A DNA stretch of 64,000 nt from positions 124,001-188,000 of the forward strand of contig JAVJQK010000031.1 in assembly GCA_040218145.1 (NCBI GenBank), in the 5' to 3' direction. The position numbers and the translations under genes are program-made. Below are positions 21,527 to 31,565 of the stretch, piece after piece. Positions within the stretch are counted from its first letter, which is position 1, and each line of letters opens with the position of its first letter. The stretch is from Sandaracinaceae bacterium (lineage in GTDB: Bacteria > Myxococcota_A > Polyangia > Polyangiales > Sandaracinaceae). A model generated the notes under the pieces. The model ran no database searches. It had not been told where the DNA came from and saw only the letters and a list, made by a program, of their open reading frames with translations.

Positions 21527-23025
21527 TGCGACCTCCCCGCGATGGCCGCGCGGGCCTCCTCACGGTCGTCGAAGTGGATCTTCGTCGTGCCGCGGATCTG
21601 GTAGTCCTCGTGGCCCTTGCCCGCGATGAGGATCGTGTCGCCGGGGCGCGCCGCGGAGACGGCCTCGCGGATGGCGGCGCGGCGATCCTCCTCGACCCGG
21701 TAGAGGCCACGGTCGGCGCGCGCGAAGGCGACGAGGTCGTCACACGCGTCCCAGCCCTCGCCGCTCACGCCGGGCTCGATCGCGGCCAGGATCGCCATGG
21801 GATCCTCGGTCCGCGGGTTGTCGCTGGTGATGACCGCGAGGTCGGCGCCGCGCGCGACCGCGCGGCCCATCTGCGGGCGCTTGGCCGCGTCGCGATCCCC
21901 GCCGCAGCCGAACACCGCGAACAGTCGCCCCGGCGTGATGGGCCGGAGCGCCGCGAGCGCGCGCGAGAGCGCGTCCGGCGTGTGCGCGTAGTCGACCAGG
22001 ATGCGCACGTCCTCGAGCCCGTCGACGCGCTCGAGCCGGCCGGGGGCGCCCTTCGCCGCGCCGAGCGCCTTCGCCGCCTCGTCGGCCTCGAAGCCGAGGG
22101 CCACGAGCACGCCGAGCGCGAGCAGCAGGTTGTCGAGGTTGTGCGCGCCGATGAGCACCGAGCGGAGCTCGACCTCTTCTCCCAGCGCCGTCACCGTCGC
22201 TCGCATGCCGTCCCGGTCCATCGTCCAGGTACGCACCGCGACGTCGCCATCGCCCTCGCGCGACACGCGGAGGCAGCCCGGCACTTCGTCGGCCAGCTGC
22301 GCGCCGTGCGGGTCGTCGACGTTGATGACCGACGCGCCCGGAGAGAGCGCGGTGAAGAGGCGGGCCTTCGCCGCGAAGTACGCCTCCATCGTGCCGTGGT
22401 AGTCGAGGTGGTCCTGGGTGAGGTTGGTGAACGCCGCGACCGCGAAGTGGACGGCGTCCGCGCGGTGCATGCCGAGCGCGTGGCTCGAGACCTCCATCAC
22501 CAGGTGCGTCGCGCCCGCGTCCACGACCTTGCGCGCGAAGCGGGCGAGCGCGTCGCCCTCGGGCGTGGTGAACGGGGCCGGCTCACGCAGGCCGGGCCCG
22601 CGGCTCTCCACCGTGCCGAGGAGCGCGGGACGCTGACCGAGCGCGCCGAGCGCCTCGTCCACCAGCCACGCCGTCGTCGTCTTGCCGTTCGTGCCCGTGA
22701 GCCCGACCACCGACAGCTCGGCCGTCGGGTCGCCGTAGACCGCCGCCGCGAGCGCGCCGAGCGCGACCCGCGCGTTCTCCACGCGGAGCTGCGGCACGTC
22801 GGCGGGCAGCGCGAGCGTCGACTCGGCCGCCACCGCCACCGCGCCGCGCTCGACCGCGCTCGCCGCGAAGCGCGCGCCGTCAGCCTGCTGGCCGCTGATC
22901 GCCACGAAGAGATCGCCCGGCTCCACCGCGCGCGAGTCGTGCCGCACGCCGCGGACCTGCACCTCGCCGTCGCCGACGAGCTCGACCGCGAGCCCACGCT
23001 CGTGCAGCGCGCGCAGCGCGATCAT
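21523..23025 (-). CDS. murE: UDP-N-acetylmuramoyl-L-alanyl-D-glutamate--2,6-diaminopimelate ligase MurE
   Basis: MurE adds the third stem-peptide residue. The 500-residue protein has DSRAVEPGDLFVAISG, the ATP loop GTNGKTTTAW near residue 115, HLVMEVSSHALG, FTNLTQDHLDYH, and FGCGGDRDAAKRPQMG. The DNPR motif near residue 402 (TSDNPRTEDP) marks enzymes that use meso-diaminopimelate rather than lysine, so this organism should have meso-DAP peptidoglycan. The ATG overlaps the ftsI stop (ATGA). Confidence 0.97.
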   Translation of the reverse strand: MIALRALHERGLAVELVGDGEVQVRGVRHDSRAVEPGDLFVAISGQQADGARFAASAVERGAVAVAAESTLALPADVPQLRVENARVALGALAAAVYGDPTAELSVVGLTGTNGKTTTAWLVDEALGALGQRPALLGTVESRGPGLREPAPFTTPEGDALARFARKVVDAGATHLVMEVSSHALGMHRADAVHFAVAAFTNLTQDHLDYHGTMEAYFAAKARLFTALSPGASVINVDDPHGAQLADEVPGCLRVSREGDGDVAVRTWTMDRDGMRATVTALGEEVELRSVLIGAHNLDNLLLALGVLVALGFEADEAAKALGAAKGAPGRLERVDGLEDVRILVDYAHTPDALSRALAALRPITPGRLFAVFGCGGDRDAAKRPQMGRAVARGADLAVITSDNPRTEDPMAILAAIEPGVSGEGWDACDDLVAFARADRGLYRVEEDRRAAIREAVSAARPGDTILIAGKGHEDYQIRGTTKIHFDDREEARAAIAGRSQ

Positions 23026-25145
23026 GGCGTCACCTGCGCGAGGGTTCCGTCGGGGGTCGGCGTGACGGGCACGTCGGCCTCGGGGCGCAGCTCCGGTCGC
23101 TCGAGGATCACGCGCACCTCGCTGCCGCGGTCCACCACCGCGCCCGGCTGCGGGCTCTGCGCGACGACGAGGCCGCTGCCCTCGAGCTGGAAGTCGAGCC
23201 CGATGCGCCGCAGCGCGCCGAGCGAGCCGCGCGCGGTGAGCCCCGTCAGATCCGGGACCATGACCTCGCCCTCGCGGGGCTCGCGCTCGGGCACGACCGC
23301 GATCTCGACCGCGGTGAGCGTCTCGGGCTGGGCTGCGCCTTCGCCGCGCGCCGCGCGACGACGCTCACGCTCGCGCTGACGGTGCCGCCGCTCGAGCTCG
23401 GCCAGCGCCTCTCCGCCCGTGTCGGCGGGGACCCCGAGGTGGCGCAACGAGGCCTCCCCGATGCGGCGGAAGATCGGCCCGGCGACGGTGCCGCCGTAGT
23501 GATCGACCACCGGCTCGTCGATCACGACGGCGATGACGAGCGCGGGATCCTGCGCGGGGACGAAGCCCACGAAGGACGCGATGTAGACGTCCTCCTGGTA
23601 GCCCCCGCGGCGGTAGTCGGCCTTCTGCGCGGTGCCCGTCTTGCCGGCGACGAGGTAGCCGTCGATCGCGGCCTCGGGCCCCGTGCCGCCCTGGCCGGTG
23701 ACGGCGGTGAGCATGTCGGCGATCAGGCGCGCGGTGCGGCGCGGGATCACCTGCCGGCGCACGCGCGGGAGCGTCTCGCTCGTGGTCGCGCCGCGACTGT
23801 CCACCGTGCGCCGCAGGATGTGCGGGTGCATCAGCCGCCCGCCGTTCGCGATGGTGCTCATCGCGGTGGCGAGCTGCAGGGTGGTCGTGCTCATGCCCTG
23901 CCCGAAGCTGATCGTCGCCAGATCGAGGTCGTACCAGCGCGTGTGGTGGCGAAGGATGCCGCCGGTCTCACCGGGGAGCTCCACGCCCGTCGGCTCGCCG
24001 AAGCCGAAGCGCCGGAACGAGCGGAAGAGCCCGCGGCGCCCGAGGCGCATGCCGATCTTGGCCGTGCCGATGTTGCTCGAGCGCGCGAGGATCTGCGCCG
24101 GGGTCATGATGCCGAAGCGGTGACCGCCGTCGCCGATGGTGTCCTCGCCGATCTCGAGCTGGCCGTCCTCCTCGCAGTCGATGGCCTCCTCGGGGTGCAC
24201 GACGTTCGCCGCGAAGGCGGCGGCCAGCGTGAACGGCTTGACGGTCGAGCCCGGCTCGAAGCGGTCGGTGACGGCGCGGTTGCGGCGGTGCGCGACCTCG
24301 GCCCGGCCCGGCTCGTTCGGGTTGAACGTCGGGTAGTTCGCCATCGCGAGGATCTCGCCCGTGCGCGGATCCATCACCACCACGCTGCCCGCGGCGGCCT
24401 CGGCCGTGCGCACGCCCAGCGCGAGCTCGCGCTCGGTGATGTGCTGGATGGTCTTGTCGATGGTGAGGAAGACGTCGTCGCCCTGCGCGGCGCGGTCGTC
24501 GAGGAGCTGGTCGCTGAAGACCACGCGGCCGCGGCGGTCGCGCACGGCGGGGACGGGCTGCACCGAGCCGCGGAGGCGATCCTCCAGCGCGAGCTCGAGG
24601 CCCTCGATGCCGACGCCGTCGATGTTCGCGAAGCCCAGCAGGTGGCTGGCGAGCTCGCGGTTCGGGTAGAAGCGGCGCGCCTCGTCGGTCATCTGCACGC
24701 CCTCGATCCCGAGCGCGCGCACCGCGGCGGCCTCGGTGGGCGTGACCTGCCGCTCGATCCAGACGAAGTAGCGGTCGGAGCGGAGGCGCGCCGCGATGCG
24801 GTCGCGGTCGACGCCGAGCAGGTTGGCCAGGCGCGTCGCGGCGGACTCCGTGTCCACGCCCTCGGCCCGCATCAGCCGCGGGTTCGCGAAGACGCTCTCG
24901 ACGTCCACGCTCACCGCGAGCTCCGCCCCGTGGCGGTCGTAGATGGTGCCGCGCTTGGGCGCGAGGCGGATGTCCCGGAGCTGCTGCGACTCGGCCATCG
25001 CGCGCAGGGCCGGGCCGTGCTGGATGGTCAGCTCCCACGCGCGCGCGGAGACCAGCAGCGCGCCGGCGCCGACAGCGAGCGCGAGCACGACCATGCGCAC
25101 CCGCATCCAGCGGCGACGCTTCGGATCGGTCAGGAGGTCGCTCAT
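23022..25145 (-). CDS. ftsI: Septal class B penicillin-binding protein with C-terminal PASTA domain
   Basis: This 707-residue transpeptidase cross-links septal peptidoglycan with FtsW. It has a short cytoplasmic tail, one N-terminal membrane helix (about residues 17-37) and a PBP-dimerisation domain starting at LAPKRGTIYDRHGAELA. The transpeptidase domain has the SxxK box STVK near residue 300 (RFEPGSTVKPF), SxN as SSN (ARSSNIGTAK) and KTGTAQ near 500. After a charged Arg/Glu linker, a single PASTA domain (about 630-690, VMVPDLTGLTARGSLGALRRIGL) ends the protein. PASTA modules on FtsI are familiar in Gram-positives and some delta-type lineages and absent from E. coli FtsI. The ATG overlaps the ftsL stop. 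Confidence 0.95.
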   Translation of the reverse strand: MSDLLTDPKRRRWMRVRMVVLALAVGAGALLVSARAWELTIQHGPALRAMAESQQLRDIRLAPKRGTIYDRHGAELAVSVDVESVFANPRLMRAEGVDTESAATRLANLLGVDRDRIAARLRSDRYFVWIERQVTPTEAAAVRALGIEGVQMTDEARRFYPNRELASHLLGFANIDGVGIEGLELALEDRLRGSVQPVPAVRDRRGRVVFSDQLLDDRAAQGDDVFLTIDKTIQHITERELALGVRTAEAAAGSVVVMDPRTGEILAMANYPTFNPNEPGRAEVAHRRNRAVTDRFEPGSTVKPFTLAAAFAANVVHPEEAIDCEEDGQLEIGEDTIGDGGHRFGIMTPAQILARSSNIGTAKIGMRLGRRGLFRSFRRFGFGEPTGVELPGETGGILRHHTRWYDLDLATISFGQGMSTTTLQLATAMSTIANGGRLMHPHILRRTVDSRGATTSETLPRVRRQVIPRRTARLIADMLTAVTGQGGTGPEAAIDGYLVAGKTGTAQKADYRRGGYQEDVYIASFVGFVPAQDPALVIAVVIDEPVVDHYGGTVAGPIFRRIGEASLRHLGVPADTGGEALAELERRHRQRERERRRAARGEGAAQPETLTAVEIAVVPEREPREGEVMVPDLTGLTARGSLGALRRIGLDFQLEGSGLVVAQSPQPGAVVDRGSEVRVILERPELRPEADVPVTPTPDGTLAQVTP

Positions 25146-25450
25146 CGCACCCTCCCCGCCATGCGCCGCTGGCGGCGCTCGTTGCCGACCGGGATCACGC
25201 GCGCCGGCTCGGGCACGTCCATCTCGAGGCGGCCGCGCGCGATGGTCTCGATGCGCTCCGCCTGGCGCAGCGTGGCCGCCTCGATGGCGAGGAGCCGACG
25301 CTGCTCGATGAGGCGGCGCTGCTGCCGACGCGCCTGCCCGACCTCGTAGCCGAGCTGCACCGTCTGCTGCCGGAGCGCGAGGTGCGAGACGAAGGCCGCG
25401 GCGGCCGCGAGCACGGCCACGCTCCAGAGGACGAGGAAGCGCGCCTTCAT
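25142..25450 (-). CDS. ftsL: Cell division protein FtsL
   Basis: This 102-residue bitopic protein has one membrane helix (about residues 5-25) followed by a Gln/Arg-rich coiled-coil segment (RQQTVQLGYEVGQARRQQRRLIEQ), the layout of FtsL. The sequence is poorly conserved, so the call rests on size, topology and position between rsmH and ftsI. Both ends overlap neighbours by ATGA. Confidence 0.85.
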   Translation of the reverse strand: MKARFLVLWSVAVLAAAAAFVSHLALRQQTVQLGYEVGQARRQQRRLIEQRRLLAIEAATLRQAERIETIARGRLEMDVPEPARVIPVGNERRQRRMAGRVR

Positions 25451-26364
25451 GCCGCCTCCTCGCGGGGGACGCGCCGCGCCGCGCGCAGCTTCGCGCTGCG
25501 GGCCCGGGGGTTGTCGTCTCGCTCGGCGTCGCCCGCGACGACCGGCTTCTTGGTCAGCGGCGCCAGCGCGTCGTGCCCCTTGAAGAAGCGCTTCACCCGG
25601 CGGTCCTCGAGCGAGTGGAAGGAGATCAAGACCGCCACCCCGTCGTCGGCGAGCACGTCGGGGAGCGACGCGAGCAGCCGGTCGAGCTGCCCCAGCTCGT
25701 CGTTCACCGCGATGCGCAGCGCCTGGAAGGTGCGGGTCGCGGGGTCGATCTTGCCGCGTCGCCCGCCGACCGCGCGGTGCACGGCCGCCTGGAGATCGCC
25801 CGTGGTGTGAAGTTGCCCCGCGTTCGCGACCTCCTTGATCACGCGCGCGATGCGGCGCGACTTCCGCTCCTCGCCGAGCTGATAGATGACGTCCGCCAGC
25901 TCGGTCTCGGTCAGCGAGTCGATGAGCTCGGCCGCGGTCTGGCCCGTCGTCGGGTCCATGCGCATGTCGAGCGGGCCGTCCGAGCGGAAGGAGAACCCGC
26001 GCTCGGGCGCGTCCAGCTGGGGGGAGCTGACCCCGATATCGGCGATCAGCCCGTCGACCTGGGGCTCACCCACCTCAGCGAGGAGCTGGGCCACGGAGGC
26101 GAACGCGCCGTGCACGAAGGTCACCCGCGGCGCGAATTCCGAGAGGCGCTCGCGCGCGGCTTCGAGGGCCGCGGGGTCCCGATCGATGCCGATCACGCGC
26201 CCGTCCGGGGCGCTCGCCCGGAGGATGCCCTCGGTGTGGCCGCCGCCCCCGAGGGTGGCGTCGGCGTAGAGGCCGCCGGAGCGCGGCGACAGAGCTGCGA
26301 GCGTCTCGTCGAGCATGACCGTTCGGTGGTGGAACGGGGTGGTGGGGGTGCGGGCTTCCGTCAC
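25447..26364 (-). CDS. rsmH: 16S rRNA (cytosine1402-N4)-methyltransferase RsmH (MraW)
   Basis: RsmH methylates C1402 of 16S rRNA using S-adenosylmethionine. The 305-residue protein shows PFHHRTVMLDETL, the SAM-binding DATLGGGGHTEGIL, GIDRDPAAL, the family signature ADIGVSSPQLD with RGFSFRSDGPLDMRMD, and ISFHSLEDRRVKRFF near the C terminus. The start is GTG at 26364, overlapping the mraZ stop (GTGA); the frame is open further upstream but only as antisense of mraZ. Confidence 0.97.
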   Translation of the reverse strand: MTEARTPTTPFHHRTVMLDETLAALSPRSGGLYADATLGGGGHTEGILRASAPDGRVIGIDRDPAALEAARERLSEFAPRVTFVHGAFASVAQLLAEVGEPQVDGLIADIGVSSPQLDAPERGFSFRSDGPLDMRMDPTTGQTAAELIDSLTETELADVIYQLGEERKSRRIARVIKEVANAGQLHTTGDLQAAVHRAVGGRRGKIDPATRTFQALRIAVNDELGQLDRLLASLPDVLADDGVAVLISFHSLEDRRVKRFFKGHDALAPLTKKPVVAGDAERDDNPRARSAKLRAARRVPREEAA

Positions 26365-26813
26365 AGGCCGAGCTCCGCGAGACGCTGCGCCATCTCGACG
26401 CGCTGGTTCGGGTCCTCGAGCACGGTGGACCGCAGGGCGTCGAAGCGCTCCTTCGACCACAGCTCCAGGTGCCGCCCCATGCCGGCCCAGAGCGCGTTCC
26501 GCTCGAGGGTCGCGTAGTTGCGCAGGGCGGCGGGGATCAGGACGCGGCCGAGCTTGTCCATCTCGACCTCGACCGCCCCGGAGACGTAGATGCGGCGGAT
26601 CATGGCCACGCTCGGGTCGAAGCTCGGGAGCTTCGCGAGCCGCGCCTCGAAGGCCTCCCACTCGGCCATGGGGTAGGCGACCAGGCAGGGGTCGAGCCCC
26701 GTCGTCACGACGAGCTTGGACGTCTCCTCCGAGGAGAGGACCTCCCGAAAACGCGACGGAACGGACGTGCGTCCCTTACCGTCGATCGCGTGCTCGTACT
26801 GACCTCGGAACAC
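26361..26813 (-). CDS. mraZ: Transcriptional regulator MraZ
   Basis: MraZ is the first gene of dcw clusters and binds its own promoter as a ring-shaped AbrB-fold multimer. The 150-residue protein has two MraZ/AbrB half-repeats: FRGQYEHAIDGKGRTSVPSRFRE at the start (DGKGR signature) and VEVEMDKLGRVLIPAALRNYA in the middle (DKLGR). The start is GTG at 26813 with an AGGTG about 8 nt upstream. A sigma-70 promoter and three phased boxes lie directly upstream. Confidence 0.95.
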   Translation of the reverse strand: MFRGQYEHAIDGKGRTSVPSRFREVLSSEETSKLVVTTGLDPCLVAYPMAEWEAFEARLAKLPSFDPSVAMIRRIYVSGAVEVEMDKLGRVLIPAALRNYATLERNALWAGMGRHLELWSKERFDALRSTVLEDPNQRVEMAQRLAELGL

Positions 26814-26925: not shown

Positions 26926-27135
26926 CTTCATTCTGATCGGGCGGTCTAGCCTGTGTTCATAGGGGTTTCCGGGCGGTGACGGAGGGGGTGGTAAGGGGTG
27001 GATCGCCGGTGATCCACTGAGGGGTAGAGGCACCAGCTCGGGCGTTCAGGTAGGCGGGGCCTGGAGACCTCGGCCGCAATTGCGGCACGATCGTTCGTGC
27101 TCTCGTGTGGGCTCGCGGGGGTCGGGTCCAGATTC

Positions 27136-27762
27136 GAGTCCGCAGCCGCGACCGAAGCCGCGACCGAGTCCGCGACCGAGTCCGCCACCGCGACCGCAGC
27201 CGCACCCGAGTCCGCCACCGCACCCGCGACCGCCCCCGCGACCGGGTCCGAGTCCGCGACCGCAGTCGCCACCGAGTCCGCAGCCGCAACCGAGTCCGCC
27301 ACCGAGTCCGCAGCCGCGACCGCAGCCGCGACCGAGTCCGCCACCGAGTCCGCCACCGAGTCCGCAGCCGCGACCGCAGCCGCGACCGAGTCCGCCACCG
27401 AGTCCGCGACCGAGTCCGCCACCGCACCCGCGACCGAGTCCGCGACCGAGTCCGCCACCGCACCCGCGACCGAGTCCGCCACCGCACCCGCGACCGCCCC
27501 CCGCGACCGGGTCCGAGTCCGCCACCGCAGCCGCCACCGAGTCCGCAGCCGCGACCGCAGCCGCGACAGAGTCCGCGACCGAGTCCGCCACCGCACCCGC
27601 GACCGCCCTCCGCGACCGAGTCCGCGACCGCAGCCCCAACCGAGTCCGCCACCGCACCCGCGACCGCCCTCCGCGACCGAGTCCGCGGCCGCGGCCCCCG
27701 AGGCCGCCACCGCGACCGCCCCCGAGGCCCGCGGCCGCCACCGCGACCGAGCCCGTCACCGC
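27136..27762. repeat. Hexanucleotide repeat array A (GNNNCC)
   Basis: About 100 imperfect hexamers of the form GNNNCC, mainly GAGTCC, GCGACC, GCCACC, GCAGCC and GCACCC, with occasional phase slips in C runs. All frames are open on both strands and translate to monotonous dipeptides, so no gene is called. The main unit GAGTCC is the reverse complement of GGACTC in array B, which abuts it. The adjoining stretches 26926-27135 and 27763-27793 contain no gene I can support. Confidence 0.9.
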
Positions 27763-27793
27763 GTGTGCACCCCTGACGGAGCCGAGGCAGTTC

Positions 27794-28147
27794 GGATGCG
27801 GAGGCGGAAGCGGAACCAGAAGCGGATTCGGATTCGGAGGCGGACTCGGACTCGGACTCGGACTCGGACTCGGACTCGGAGGCGGATTCGGATTCGGAGA
27901 CGGATTCGGAGGCGGAGGCGGACTCGGACTCGGATTCGGATTCGGATTCGGATTCGGATTCGGAGGCGGACTCGGACTCGGACTCGGACTCGGATTCGGA
28001 GGCGGAAGCGGAAGCGGAGGCGGAGGCGGATGCGGATGCGGATGCGGATGCGGATGCGGATGCGGATGCGGATGCGGAAGCGGAAGCGAAAGCGGAAGCG
28101 GAAGCGGAAGCGAAAGCGGAAGCGGAGGCGCAGGCGGAGGCGCAGGC
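27794..28147. repeat. Hexanucleotide repeat array B (GGANNC)
   Basis: Fifty-nine hexamers in unbroken 6-nt phase, nearly all GGANNC, arranged in blocks of GGACTC, GGATTC, GGAGGC, GGATGC (eight identical copies at 28028-28075) and GGAAGC. The block structure implies slippage-driven growth. Translation gives Gly-X or Arg-X dipeptides in plus-strand frames; these are treated as non-coding. The array ends about 60 bp before the GTG of the next gene. Confidence 0.92.
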
Positions 28148-28206
28148 GGAGCAAGCGCCGTGCGCATTCCCGGGCCTCCTGACGCTGTCGCGGTAGACTC
28201 CCTGGC

Positions 28207-28539
28207 GTGGACGACCCGGTCGACGTCGCGTGGCGCGAGGTGGAGGCGGACTGGGCTTCCGAGCGAGCCCACAAGAAGTTCCTGACCCTCTGCGCGTCGC
28301 TGGACCGCCTCGCGGAGGCGGGGAAGCGCTACCGGGCGGTGAAGGACTCCGACCCGGATCGCGCGGAGGTCGCCAGCGAGCAGATCGACCGCTTGCTCGG
28401 GCTGGCGATGCAGAACCTCCAGGTGCTCAAGAGCGAGCCGAAGACGCGGAGCGGGAAGCAGGTGCTCTTCTTGATCGCGCTCGGGATCAGCGGCGCCCTG
28501 GTCGTCACCGCCGTGATGGCGATGTTGCGGATGATGTAG
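28207..28539 (+). CDS. Small tail-anchored membrane protein of unknown function
   Basis: This 110-residue protein has a soluble, helical, charged N-terminal part (EVEADWASERAHKKFLTLCASLDRLAEAGKRYRAVKDSDPDRAEV). It ends in one hydrophobic segment (VLFLIALGISGALVVTAVMAML), which suggests a tail-anchored inner-membrane protein facing the cytoplasm. I do not recognise a family. The start is GTG at 28207, the first start after the repeat array. It lies 26 bp before the MglA-like GTPase gene, so it may be its membrane partner (inference). Confidence 0.75.
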   Translation: MDDPVDVAWREVEADWASERAHKKFLTLCASLDRLAEAGKRYRAVKDSDPDRAEVASEQIDRLLGLAMQNLQVLKSEPKTRSGKQVLFLIALGISGALVVTAVMAMLRMM

Positions 28540-28565
28540 CCGGGTCGCTATCCTCCCGGCCTCGC

Positions 28566-29246
28566 ATGCAGCTGGATTTCAAGGCGCGCGAGCTGACCAT
28601 CAAGCTCGTGTATTACGGGCCGGCGCTCAGCGGGAAGACCACCAACCTGCAGGCGATCCATCGGTTGGTGAACACCGACGTCGCCGGGCGCCTGATGACG
28701 CTCGAGACCCAGGACGATCGGACGCTCTTCTTCGATCTCCTGCCGCTCTCCCTCAACGCGGGCAAAGGGCTCCAGGTCCGCGTGAAGCTCTTCACCGTGC
28801 CCGGGCAGGTCATCCACAACGCGACCCGGCGCCTCGTGCTCCAGGGGGCCGACGGCGTCGCGTTCATCGCCGACAGCCAGCGCTCCGAGACGAAGTCGAA
28901 CGCCGCGTCGTTCGTGAACCTCCGTCAGAACCTCACCGAGCAGGGCATCGAGCCCGCCGCGATGCCGCTCGTCATCCAGTTCAACAAGCGCGACCTGCCC
29001 GAGATCCGGACCGACGAGGAGATCGACGCGCTCGCCACCCGCGGCAAGGAGCCCGTCTTCAAGGCGGTGGCGCTCCGCGGCGTCGGCGTGCTCGAGACCC
29101 TGATGGGGCTGATGGAGATCACCTGGCAGCGGCTCGAGACCGAGCACTGCCTGAGCGAGAAGTTCGGCCTGACACCCGGCCCGCTCCTGGCGGAGCTCGA
29201 GCGGCACCTCGGCGTGCGCGAGGCCATCCAGCGGGTGAGCCGATGA
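28566..29246 (+). CDS. MglA-like small Ras-family GTPase
   Basis: MglA-type GTPases set cell polarity and gliding motility in myxobacteria. The 226-residue protein has the P-loop YYGPALSGKTTNLQ, the atypical G3 motif FTVPGQV with the RRLVLQGADGVAFIADSQ that follows it in MglA, and the G4 motif NKRD (IQFNKRDLPEI). The Thr in place of the usual Asp of DxxG is characteristic of MglA. The protein carries an extra C-terminal helix of about 30 residues beyond the 195-residue MglA. No mglB (roadblock) partner is adjacent; instead it overlaps the next gene, a histidine kinase (ATGA). It may be a paralogue rather than the motility MglA itself. Confidence 0.88.
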   Translation: MQLDFKARELTIKLVYYGPALSGKTTNLQAIHRLVNTDVAGRLMTLETQDDRTLFFDLLPLSLNAGKGLQVRVKLFTVPGQVIHNATRRLVLQGADGVAFIADSQRSETKSNAASFVNLRQNLTEQGIEPAAMPLVIQFNKRDLPEIRTDEEIDALATRGKEPVFKAVALRGVGVLETLMGLMEITWQRLETEHCLSEKFGLTPGPLLAELERHLGVREAIQRVSR

Positions 29247-30637
29247 GCGAGCCGCAGATCGACATCACGCTCGCGGACATCACGCGCCTCGAGGAGATCG
29301 TGGATCGCGGCGCCCTCGGCGAGGTGTGCCGCTCCTTCTTCGACCTCTTCTCGCTGCCGATCCGGGTCTTCTCTCACGACGGCACGCTGTTGGCCGACGT
29401 GCACGAGAGCCGCGAGATCTGCCGCTACGTCAACACCCTCAAGCAGGGCCGGCCCGCGTGCAGCGCGCTCGTCTCCGAGGTGAAGGGCATCGACCCGCAG
29501 GACGGCGTGGTGGTCCACCCCTGCTTCACGGGCGCCGTCTATCGCATCGTGCCGATCGACTACCAGGGTCGGCGGCTCGGGCGCTTCGTGATCGGCCCCT
29601 ACCTCCCCGCCGAGAAGAAAGAGGTCCCGCGCTCGCTGCTCGTGCTCGACCCGGACATCGACCCGGAGCAAGCGCGCAGCGGACTGATGGAGATGCCCCG
29701 GGTGCGCGAGGAGACGGCCGACCGCCTCTCCGAGCACCTGACGCACATCCTCGACCTGATCATCTTCAGCGGGCACCGGGCGTTCCTGACGAGCCAGATG
29801 CACGTCGCGAGCGTGCGCGAGAGCTACCGCACCCTGAGCGAGAAGAACGAGGAGCTGCAGGAGGCCTTCGATCGGTTGAAGGAGCTCGACCGGCTGAAGT
29901 CCAACTTCCTCGCCACGGTCAGCCACGAGCTCCGCACGCCGCTGACGTCGATCATCGGCTACAGCGACATGCTCGCCACCGGGATCGCGGGCGACCTCAA
30001 CGAGGAGCAGGCCGAGTTCGTCGAGACCATCCGGGGCAAGGGCGATCACCTGCTCGCGCTGATCAGCAGCCTGCTCGACCTCGGCAAGCTCGAGCAAGGC
30101 AACCTGCCGCTCAAGCGCGAGCTCATCGATCCGGCGGAGTTGCTCGACGAGGTCGCCAAGACCATGACCCCCGCGGCCGAGAAGAAGTCCGTGAAGATGG
30201 CGGTGAACGTCGAGGGCGCGCTGCACCCCTTCGCGGTCGACCCCGTCCGGATCAAGCAGGTGCTCTTCAACCTCTCCGAGAACGCCGTGAAGTTCTCTCC
30301 GCGGGGCGGCACCGTCACGCTGAGCGTGCGCTCGGTCGAGCTGGAGAGCGAGGGAGGCGGAGACGGGATGGGCTTCGTGCTCATGGCCGCGCCGAAGACC
30401 GCGCTCGAGATCTCGGTGAGCGACCAGGGGCCTGGCATCCCCAGCGGCGAGCAGGACAAGATCTTCGACGCCTTCTATCAGGTCGACGGCAGCTCCACGC
30501 GCGAGCACGGCGGCACGGGCCTCGGGCTCTCCATCGTCAAGCGGCTGGTGGAGGCGCACGCGGGGCAGGTCTGGGTCGACAGCGTCGTCGGCGAAGGCAC
30601 GACCTTCTCGTTCACGATCCCCGAGGGCGACGAGTAG
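29243..30637 (+). CDS. PocR-domain sensor histidine kinase
   Basis: This 464-residue soluble kinase begins with a PocR-type sensory domain (about residues 15-170: [48 protein letters not shown]), a fold linked to small-ligand sensing. A short coiled coil ([24 protein letters not shown]) leads to the HisKA domain with phospho-acceptor His near residue 228 ([15 protein letters not shown]). The HATPase domain has N box [11 protein letters not shown]1 DQGPGIPSG and G2 [10 protein letters not shown]. No transmembrane segment is seen. The ATG overlaps the GTPase stop, so the two are likely made together. No response regulator is adjacent. Confidence 0.88.
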
Positions 30638-30641
30638 CGCG

Positions 30642-31565
30642 ATGGACGAGTTCGCGCTCATCGCGCGGATCCGCGAGCGATTGAAGACGGATGATCCGCG
30701 CGTGCGCCTCGGGGTGGGTGACGACGCCGCGGTGATCGCCGCACCCCGCGATGACGTCGTCGTGTCGGTCGACGCGGTCGTCGAGGGCGCTCACTTCGAC
30801 CGGCGCTGGTTGAGCTGGCGGGACGTCGGGTGGCGGGGGATGGTCGGGGCGCTGAGCGACCTGGCCGCCATGCGCGCCCGCCCCGTCTGCGCGCTGCTCT
30901 CGCTCGTCTTGCCCGACGACCTCGGCGAGGAGGCGGCGCTCGCCCTCGTCGACGGCGCGGCCGAGGCCGCCCACGCGCACGGCGCGTCGATCGTCGGCGG
31001 CAACCTGGCGCGCGGCCCGGTGGTCTCGCAGCACACGACGGTGATGGGCGAGGCGGCGCACCCGCTGACCCGGAGCGGCGCGCGCCCGGGCGACGCGATC
31101 TACGTCACCGGGACCCTGGGAGCGGCCGCGCTCGGGTGGAGGCTCCTCGCGGCGGACGCCGCGGACGATGGGCCGTCGTTCGTCGCGCGGTGGCGGAGGC
31201 CGAGGGCGCGCTTCGACGCCCTCCCCTGGCTCGCGCACGCGAGCGCGTGCGTCGACGTCTCGGACGGCCTCGCGCAGGACCTCGGTCACCTCTGCGCGGC
31301 GAGCGGGGTGGGCGCCGCGCTCGAGCTGCCGCGCGTCCCGGTGGAGCCGGACCATCACGCGGTCGCCGCCGCCCACGGGCTCGACGGCGACGTCCTCGCG
31401 GCGAGCGGGGGCGAGGACTACGAGCTCGTCTTCACCTGCCCCGCCAGCCTGGACGGTCCCTTCACCCGCGTGGGCGAGATCCTCGAAGGCGAAGGCGTGG
31501 AGCTGCGGGACGCCGACGGTCGTGTGCGCCTCCTCGACGCGTCCGGTCACCGCCACTTCGGCTGA
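30642..31565 (+). CDS. thiL: Thiamine-monophosphate kinase ThiL
   Basis: ThiL phosphorylates thiamine monophosphate to thiamine diphosphate. The 307-residue protein has the AIR synthase-like fold with [57 protein letters not shown] and [11 protein letters not shown], all family hallmarks. It starts 4 nt after the kinase stop and ends the four-gene operon. Its inclusion with a GTPase and kinase looks like positional convenience. Confidence 0.94.

Follow-up and report, generated by a model that had tools for sequence, protein, structure and literature searches.

In a member of the Sandaracinaceae, the gene for a GTPase of the SofG type overlaps the gene for a histidine kinase with a PocR sensory domain. 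Conservation of this pair in Polyangia, in Myxococcia, and in some other Myxococcota shows that it reflects more than chance. We lean toward the interpretation that the two proteins make up a SofG-PocR-kinase module of Myxococcota, in which the kinase is bound and coupled to the SofG-type GTPase and, in this lineage, a membrane adaptor is added. The DNA we analyzed (hereafter, the window) is a stretch of 64,000 nucleotides from contig JAVJQK010000031.1 of assembly GCA_040218145.1, and positions are counted from its first letter.

Three genes on the forward strand occupy positions 28207-30637, as the first-pass annotation of this DNA had described. The first (28207-28539) has a GTG start and encodes a small, putatively tail-anchored protein of 110 amino acids. 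The second (28566-29246) encodes a 226-amino-acid GTPase, which we assign to the SofG type within Group 1 of the MglA family from its matches to MglA structures, the conservation of its motifs in 157 orthologs, and its position in a tree. The third (29243-30637) encodes a histidine kinase of 464 amino acids with the architecture PocR-HisKA-HATPase_c, and its start lies inside the GTPase stop. The ATGA overlap that had been claimed for the last two genes is present at 29243-29246, where the four bases are common to the stop of one gene and the start of the other. Just one terminator-like match was found in the region; it falls within the kinase gene, at a level that chance predicts, so we see no separator between the genes of the trio. 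The gene that follows (30642-31565, forward strand), which from its sequence we read as a thiL-like gene for thiamine-monophosphate kinase, is also a frequent next gene at other loci and served as our control for linkage.

The surroundings of the trio have features of their own. Between mraZ and the small gene lies a stretch of approximately 1 kb of degenerate tandem repeats rich in GC (27135-28150; periods 6/18 and 12/24/42), from which long spurious reading frames arise on both strands. On the reverse strand, back to back with the trio, is the start of a division and cell-wall cluster (23022-26813; mraZ, rsmH, ftsL, and ftsI). This divergent arrangement recurs in eight of the 78 relatives with enough sequence and also at locus L264.

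For the GTPase, Pfam returned just a sub-threshold match to Arf. Residues 3-188 match crystallized MglA proteins (E ~1e-52), with 46-48% identity and the same catalytic residues. Group 1 of the MglA family is defined by GxxxxGK[TS], an Arg in G2, TVPGQ in G3, NKxD in G4, and a length of 150-240 amino acids (Wuichet and Sogaard-Andersen, 2014; PMC4316618). This signature is complete in the window GTPase, which has the P-loop, the catalytic Arg of G2 (R52; 28719-28721), the TVPGQ on which the first-pass annotation had based its MglA assignment (28794-28808), and NKRD. Nearly all of the 157 kinase-linked orthologs likewise have the features of Group 1; 156 of them retain the catalytic Arg and 155 the Gln. 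Beyond the MglA match, from approximately residue 191, the protein continues in a C-terminal extension of about 35 residues (29136-29243).

The same annotation had placed this GTPase in an MglA operon in which a kinase takes the place of MglB. This view did not survive a search of the whole 11.1 Mb assembly, which contains four MglA-family genes and a single roadblock gene. The roadblock gene (G000:C21) directly precedes a canonical mglA of 196 amino acids. An mglB-mglA pair thus already exists in this genome, and the window GTPase belongs to a separate clade. Within four genes of the window GTPase, we found no mglB (roadblock) gene, a result in favor of the first-pass annotation, which a functional mglB partner would have contradicted. 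With the only roadblock gene beside another mglA, we ruled out MglB as a hidden partner and regard the window GTPase as what Wuichet and Sogaard-Andersen (2014; PMC4316618) term an orphan, rather than as an MglA deprived of its MglB. Another orphan MglA-family gene of this genome (L085; G000:C127, from 3554, reverse strand) adjoins a gene for a Ser/Thr protein kinase.

We compared the window GTPase with SofG by way of its orthologs in Myxococcus-type genomes rather than through the named M. xanthus protein. SofG is 239 amino acids long and MglA 195 (PMC4316618). The MglA-family proteins of Myxococcus-type genomes are approximately 195, 239, and more than 330 amino acids long; only the 239-residue protein is linked to the kinase, and the orthologs of the window GTPase in four such genomes (G443, G449, G460, and G469) are all of this length. 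In Myxococcaceae, the gene diverges, back to back, from a GNAT acetyltransferase gene, and then come two genes for PilT-type ATPases. We take sofG to be MXAN_6703. Two papers identify MXAN_6704 as a GNAT protein. Since both the length of 239 amino acids in Myxococcus-type genomes and the divergent GNAT gene are as expected at the sofG locus, we read the window GTPase as a likely SofG ortholog on the basis of length, synteny, and the locus tag. There is a slim chance that the GTPase is instead a third, uncharacterized member of the MglA family and that another paralog is the SofG of M. xanthus. This reading has to contend with the fact that, among the three MglA-family proteins, only the kinase-linked one has the 239 amino acids of SofG, and with the GNAT neighbor of the kinase-linked ortholog. 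As for the function of the likely ortholog, GTP hydrolysis by SofG is not aided by MglB, and SofG is without a known GAP (PMC4316618). The bactofilin BacP is implicated in the subpolar localization of SofG, which sorts two pilus ATPases (PMC5703909). Bactofilins are also encoded in the genome of the window, with three matches above the cut-off.

In a maximum-likelihood tree of 95 GTPases, which was built quickly and has several long branches, the SofG-like family was separate from MglA and from the longer paralogs (SH-aLRT 100). Kinase-linked GTPases fell on one side of a branch (support 91) and related kinase-less members on another (94). The SofG-like GTPases in other Myxococcota lineages have no such kinase beside them. 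Those of loci L226-L250 lie in a constant neighborhood made up of a riboflavin gene and the genes for methylmalonyl-CoA mutase and its GTPase chaperone. The GTPase on a contig labeled Bdellovibrio (L150) is almost identical to the one in a bin assigned to Myxococcota (L148), so the Bdellovibrio label may be wrong.

At a threshold of E 1e-60 or better, orthologs of the GTPase were present in 22 of 28 near-relative genomes (its own included) and in 84 of the 193 genomes of the class. In the family of a Myxococcus bin, each of the 56 genomes has an ortholog. The kinase gene is immediately downstream in 80 of 80 loci of the named collection, which come from Sandaracinaceae, Sorangium, Polyangium, Minicystis, Plesiocystis, Enhygromyxa, Paraliomyxa, and bins of Archangium or Myxococcaceae. 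It is also downstream in every Myxococcaceae ortholog locus that we fetched, and in the ortholog loci of the class except at one contig end and one second copy. We had considered that the pair might be confined to close relatives of the window, an idea dropped once the search of Myxococcaceae showed the pair there. When identical proteins were merged, 157 of 199 GTPases were linked to the kinase. For GTPases at least 53% identical to that of the window, the kinase was downstream of 150 of 154 distinct proteins. Of the four exceptions, two lie at contig ends, one is explained by a frameshift, and one is a second copy of the gene. The two genes overlap by exactly 4 bases in 93 of the 157 pairs and by 1 base in 17. 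The linkage of the pair exceeds plain gene-order inertia, as thiL is kept after the kinase in only about half of the loci with enough sequence (48 of 98).

Several loci depart from this pattern. An apparent GTPase-kinase fusion in Sorangium cellulosum So ce26 (L139; a reading frame of 738 amino acids) was rejected, since a single extra base relative to a close relative explains the frame; the base is either a sequencing error or a real mutation. L087 (G141:C108, 4158-6220, reverse strand) is a second SofG-like copy, and the gene that it overlaps encodes a Ser/Thr protein kinase rather than a histidine kinase. At L267 (G038:C54), a kinase is paired with a diverged GTPase in which VPGN replaces VPGQ, a change that may alter GTP hydrolysis.

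The description of the third protein as a PocR-domain kinase proved correct, as all three of its domains, encoded on the forward strand, scored above the Pfam cut-off. The PocR sensory domain (29294-29773; PF10114, E 5e-19), which was found in the same place in the genome search, is followed by HisKA (29897-30100; PF00512, E 5e-21), with the phospho-acceptor His228 at 29924-29926, and by HATPase_c (30239-30625; PF02518, E 3e-30). The protein ends three residues past the HATPase match. The phospho-acceptor His is conserved in 153 of 154 kinases and the ATP-binding Asn (Asn347) in 152. With catalytic residues nearly invariant in both proteins, GTPase and kinase are both maintained in working form. 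Within the kinase, conservation is lowest in the sensor domain, whose three PocR cysteines are kept in about two-thirds of the proteins. Pfam found PocR in the Myxococcus, Polyangium, and Sorangium kinases and gave weak matches in two others; it did not recognize the domain in the Plesiocystis and Enhygromyxa kinases, though these loci retain the kinase core and the GTPase. Judged by conservation, the kinase core and the GTPase are the constant part of the system and the sensor is the adaptable one.

Growth substrates are the predicted ligands of PocR domains (PMC1592074). A single PocR domain besides that of the kinase is encoded in the genome of the window, and a sequence search of the PocR part against solved structures returned no match. 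Among the neighbors that we read, no response regulator gene was recognized beside the pairs, the usual next gene being thiL. Orphan kinases often work through unlinked response regulators. With the full set of residues of an ordinary kinase, the protein may simply phosphorylate a response regulator encoded elsewhere.

The small protein matched no family in Pfam or NCBIfam. Its AlphaFold model (pLDDT 92.5) contains four helices and a long C-terminal helix; residues 82-109 (approximately 28450-28533) are predicted to form this one helix, which is consistent with a tail anchor. Fold matches were weak, non-significant, and mostly TPR-like. Three residues, W9, H22, and Y42, are invariant among the homologs, and some versions open with a zinc-ribbon-like CPKC segment (L121, L123, and L124). 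In a profile search, a homolog immediately preceded the GTPase at 40 of 162 kinase-linked loci, in several orders, and at none of the kinase-less loci. The first-pass annotation had called for conservation of the three-gene order in relatives. The order is indeed conserved in relatives, for the GTPase and the kinase far beyond Polyangiales; the small protein is present in only about a quarter of the pairs. A strict three-gene module was ruled out by these counts and by the location of relatives of the small protein elsewhere in genomes without an upstream copy, and we define the core as two genes, not three. The small protein is best seen, from its predicted helix and its distribution, as a putative membrane adaptor that is old but optional. 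In Myxococcus-type genomes, a relative is found approximately 17 kb from the sofG-like gene, beside a gene for an M50-type protease. At three loci from another group of Polyangia (L265, L266, and L268), the order is M50-type protease, small protein, GTPase, kinase, and CBS-domain protein, a row that hints at an older, larger cluster.

Twenty-six genomes that at first seemed to be without the GTPase were searched for the kinase: 19 have neither gene, five have a diverged pair, and two (G032 and G037) have the kinase alone. The kinase-less GTPases of other Myxococcota and the two kinase-only genomes indicate that neither gene strictly needs the other. In a mirror-tree comparison of 52 loci that also have thiL, distances correlated at r 0.76 for GTPase and kinase versus 0.65 for GTPase and thiL (partial correlations, 0.56 versus 0.25). 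The bootstrap 95% interval of the excess over thiL, 0.0004-0.245, barely excludes zero, and the comparison gives weak support to co-evolution of GTPase and kinase beyond that with thiL.

In the mechanism that we propose, the SofG-type Ras-like GTPase and the cytosolic sensor histidine kinase would bind each other. The PocR domain would read a small cytosolic metabolite, and kinase activity would be coupled to the GTP/GDP state or the position of the GTPase. The GTPase would carry the signal to a site in the cell, which in Myxococcus would be the pole at which PilB and PilT are positioned, and the membrane adaptor, where present, would hold the complex at the membrane. As no roadblock GAP is encoded with the pair and SofG is reportedly not stimulated by MglB, the kinase or its phosphorylation target is the leading candidate for the regulator. 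Our guess is that control runs, somewhat more probably, from the kinase to the GTPase than in the reverse direction. More tentatively, the PocR kinase could be the missing direct regulator of SofG, exerting ligand-sensing control over its nucleotide state or position without a roadblock GAP; the pair would then be a second, independent bacterial kinase-GTPase circuit besides the conservons, general to Polyangia and Myxococcia.

In the main rival reading, the order of events is the opposite, with the GTPase upstream: SofG-GTP would act at a subcellular site to recruit or activate the kinase, which, as its effector, would signal through an unlinked response regulator. A kinase with every catalytic residue for ordinary phosphotransfer suits such a role, as do the two genomes that retain the kinase after loss of the GTPase, which fit a kinase with its own output. 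The pattern of conservation is also in line with it: the kinase core and the GTPase persist, whereas the sensor varies most and goes unrecognized as PocR in Plesiocystis and Enhygromyxa. However, no response regulator gene was recognized beside the pairs read, where thiL is the usual next gene, and we consider a GTPase-first order unlikely.

We regard as more improbable still that the overlap serves co-expression only, with translational coupling setting the dosage of two proteins that act in separate pathways without physical or regulatory contact. The SofG-like GTPases that lack the kinase in other Myxococcota and the kinases that stand alone in two genomes are what such an arrangement would allow. 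It fits poorly, however, with the near-complete linkage of the pair across Polyangia and Myxococcia while thiL, the GNAT gene, and small genes come and go, and with the absence of both genes from 19 of the 26 genomes.

The first-pass annotation had presented the arrangement as one not known to be described. In open-licence papers on SofG, MglA, and PocR, a scope that leaves the original SofG paper outside, we found no description of a pair of GTPase and PocR kinase; MglA and PocR occurred together only in studies of Salmonella gene expression. The pairing of a SofG-type GTPase with a PocR kinase is thus new as far as this literature goes, whereas a kinase beside a small GTPase is already known from conservons and Group-1 Rup loci. 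The pairing names a candidate partner for SofG, and since the overlapping kinase is also present in the family of the genetic model, control of SofG becomes directly testable. It also provides a second arrangement of kinase and small GTPase to set against the conservons, with another GTPase group and no roadblock protein.

Among known systems, SofG of M. xanthus shares with the window GTPase the Group-1 MglA-family motifs and the absence of mglB beside its gene, and bactofilins are found in the genome of the window as well. The M. xanthus protein, an orphan that positions PilB and PilT with BacP, has 239 amino acids, whereas the window version has 226 and is preceded by the membrane adaptor. 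The MglA-MglB polarity module of Myxococcus and Thermus has a GTPase with the same catalytic residues (46-48% identity), but the window GTPase is without MglB, falls in a separate clade, and has an extra C-terminal segment of about 35 residues. Group-1 Rup loci (PMC4316618) resemble the trio in placing a small GTPase beside a signaling output gene, sometimes a histidine kinase, together with a membrane protein; they differ in their GTPase family, which lacks the G3 glutamine, and in their other associated genes. In actinobacterial conservons (CvnA-D; PMC13343842), as in the window, an operon encodes a sensor histidine kinase and an MglA-family GTPase without an adjacent response regulator. The conservon GTPase, however, belongs to Group 2 (GTPGQ in G3) and is accompanied by the roadblock protein CvnB and by CvnC, whereas the window GTPase is of Group 1, with TVPGQ, its own Arg finger, and no roadblock protein; and the conservon kinase has a C-terminal extension with LPxR that the window kinase lacks. 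In conservons, an accessory protein stimulates autophosphorylation of the kinase (PMC13343842; PMC4316618), and the conservon is, by analogy, the nearest working model for how a GTPase and a kinase could be coupled.
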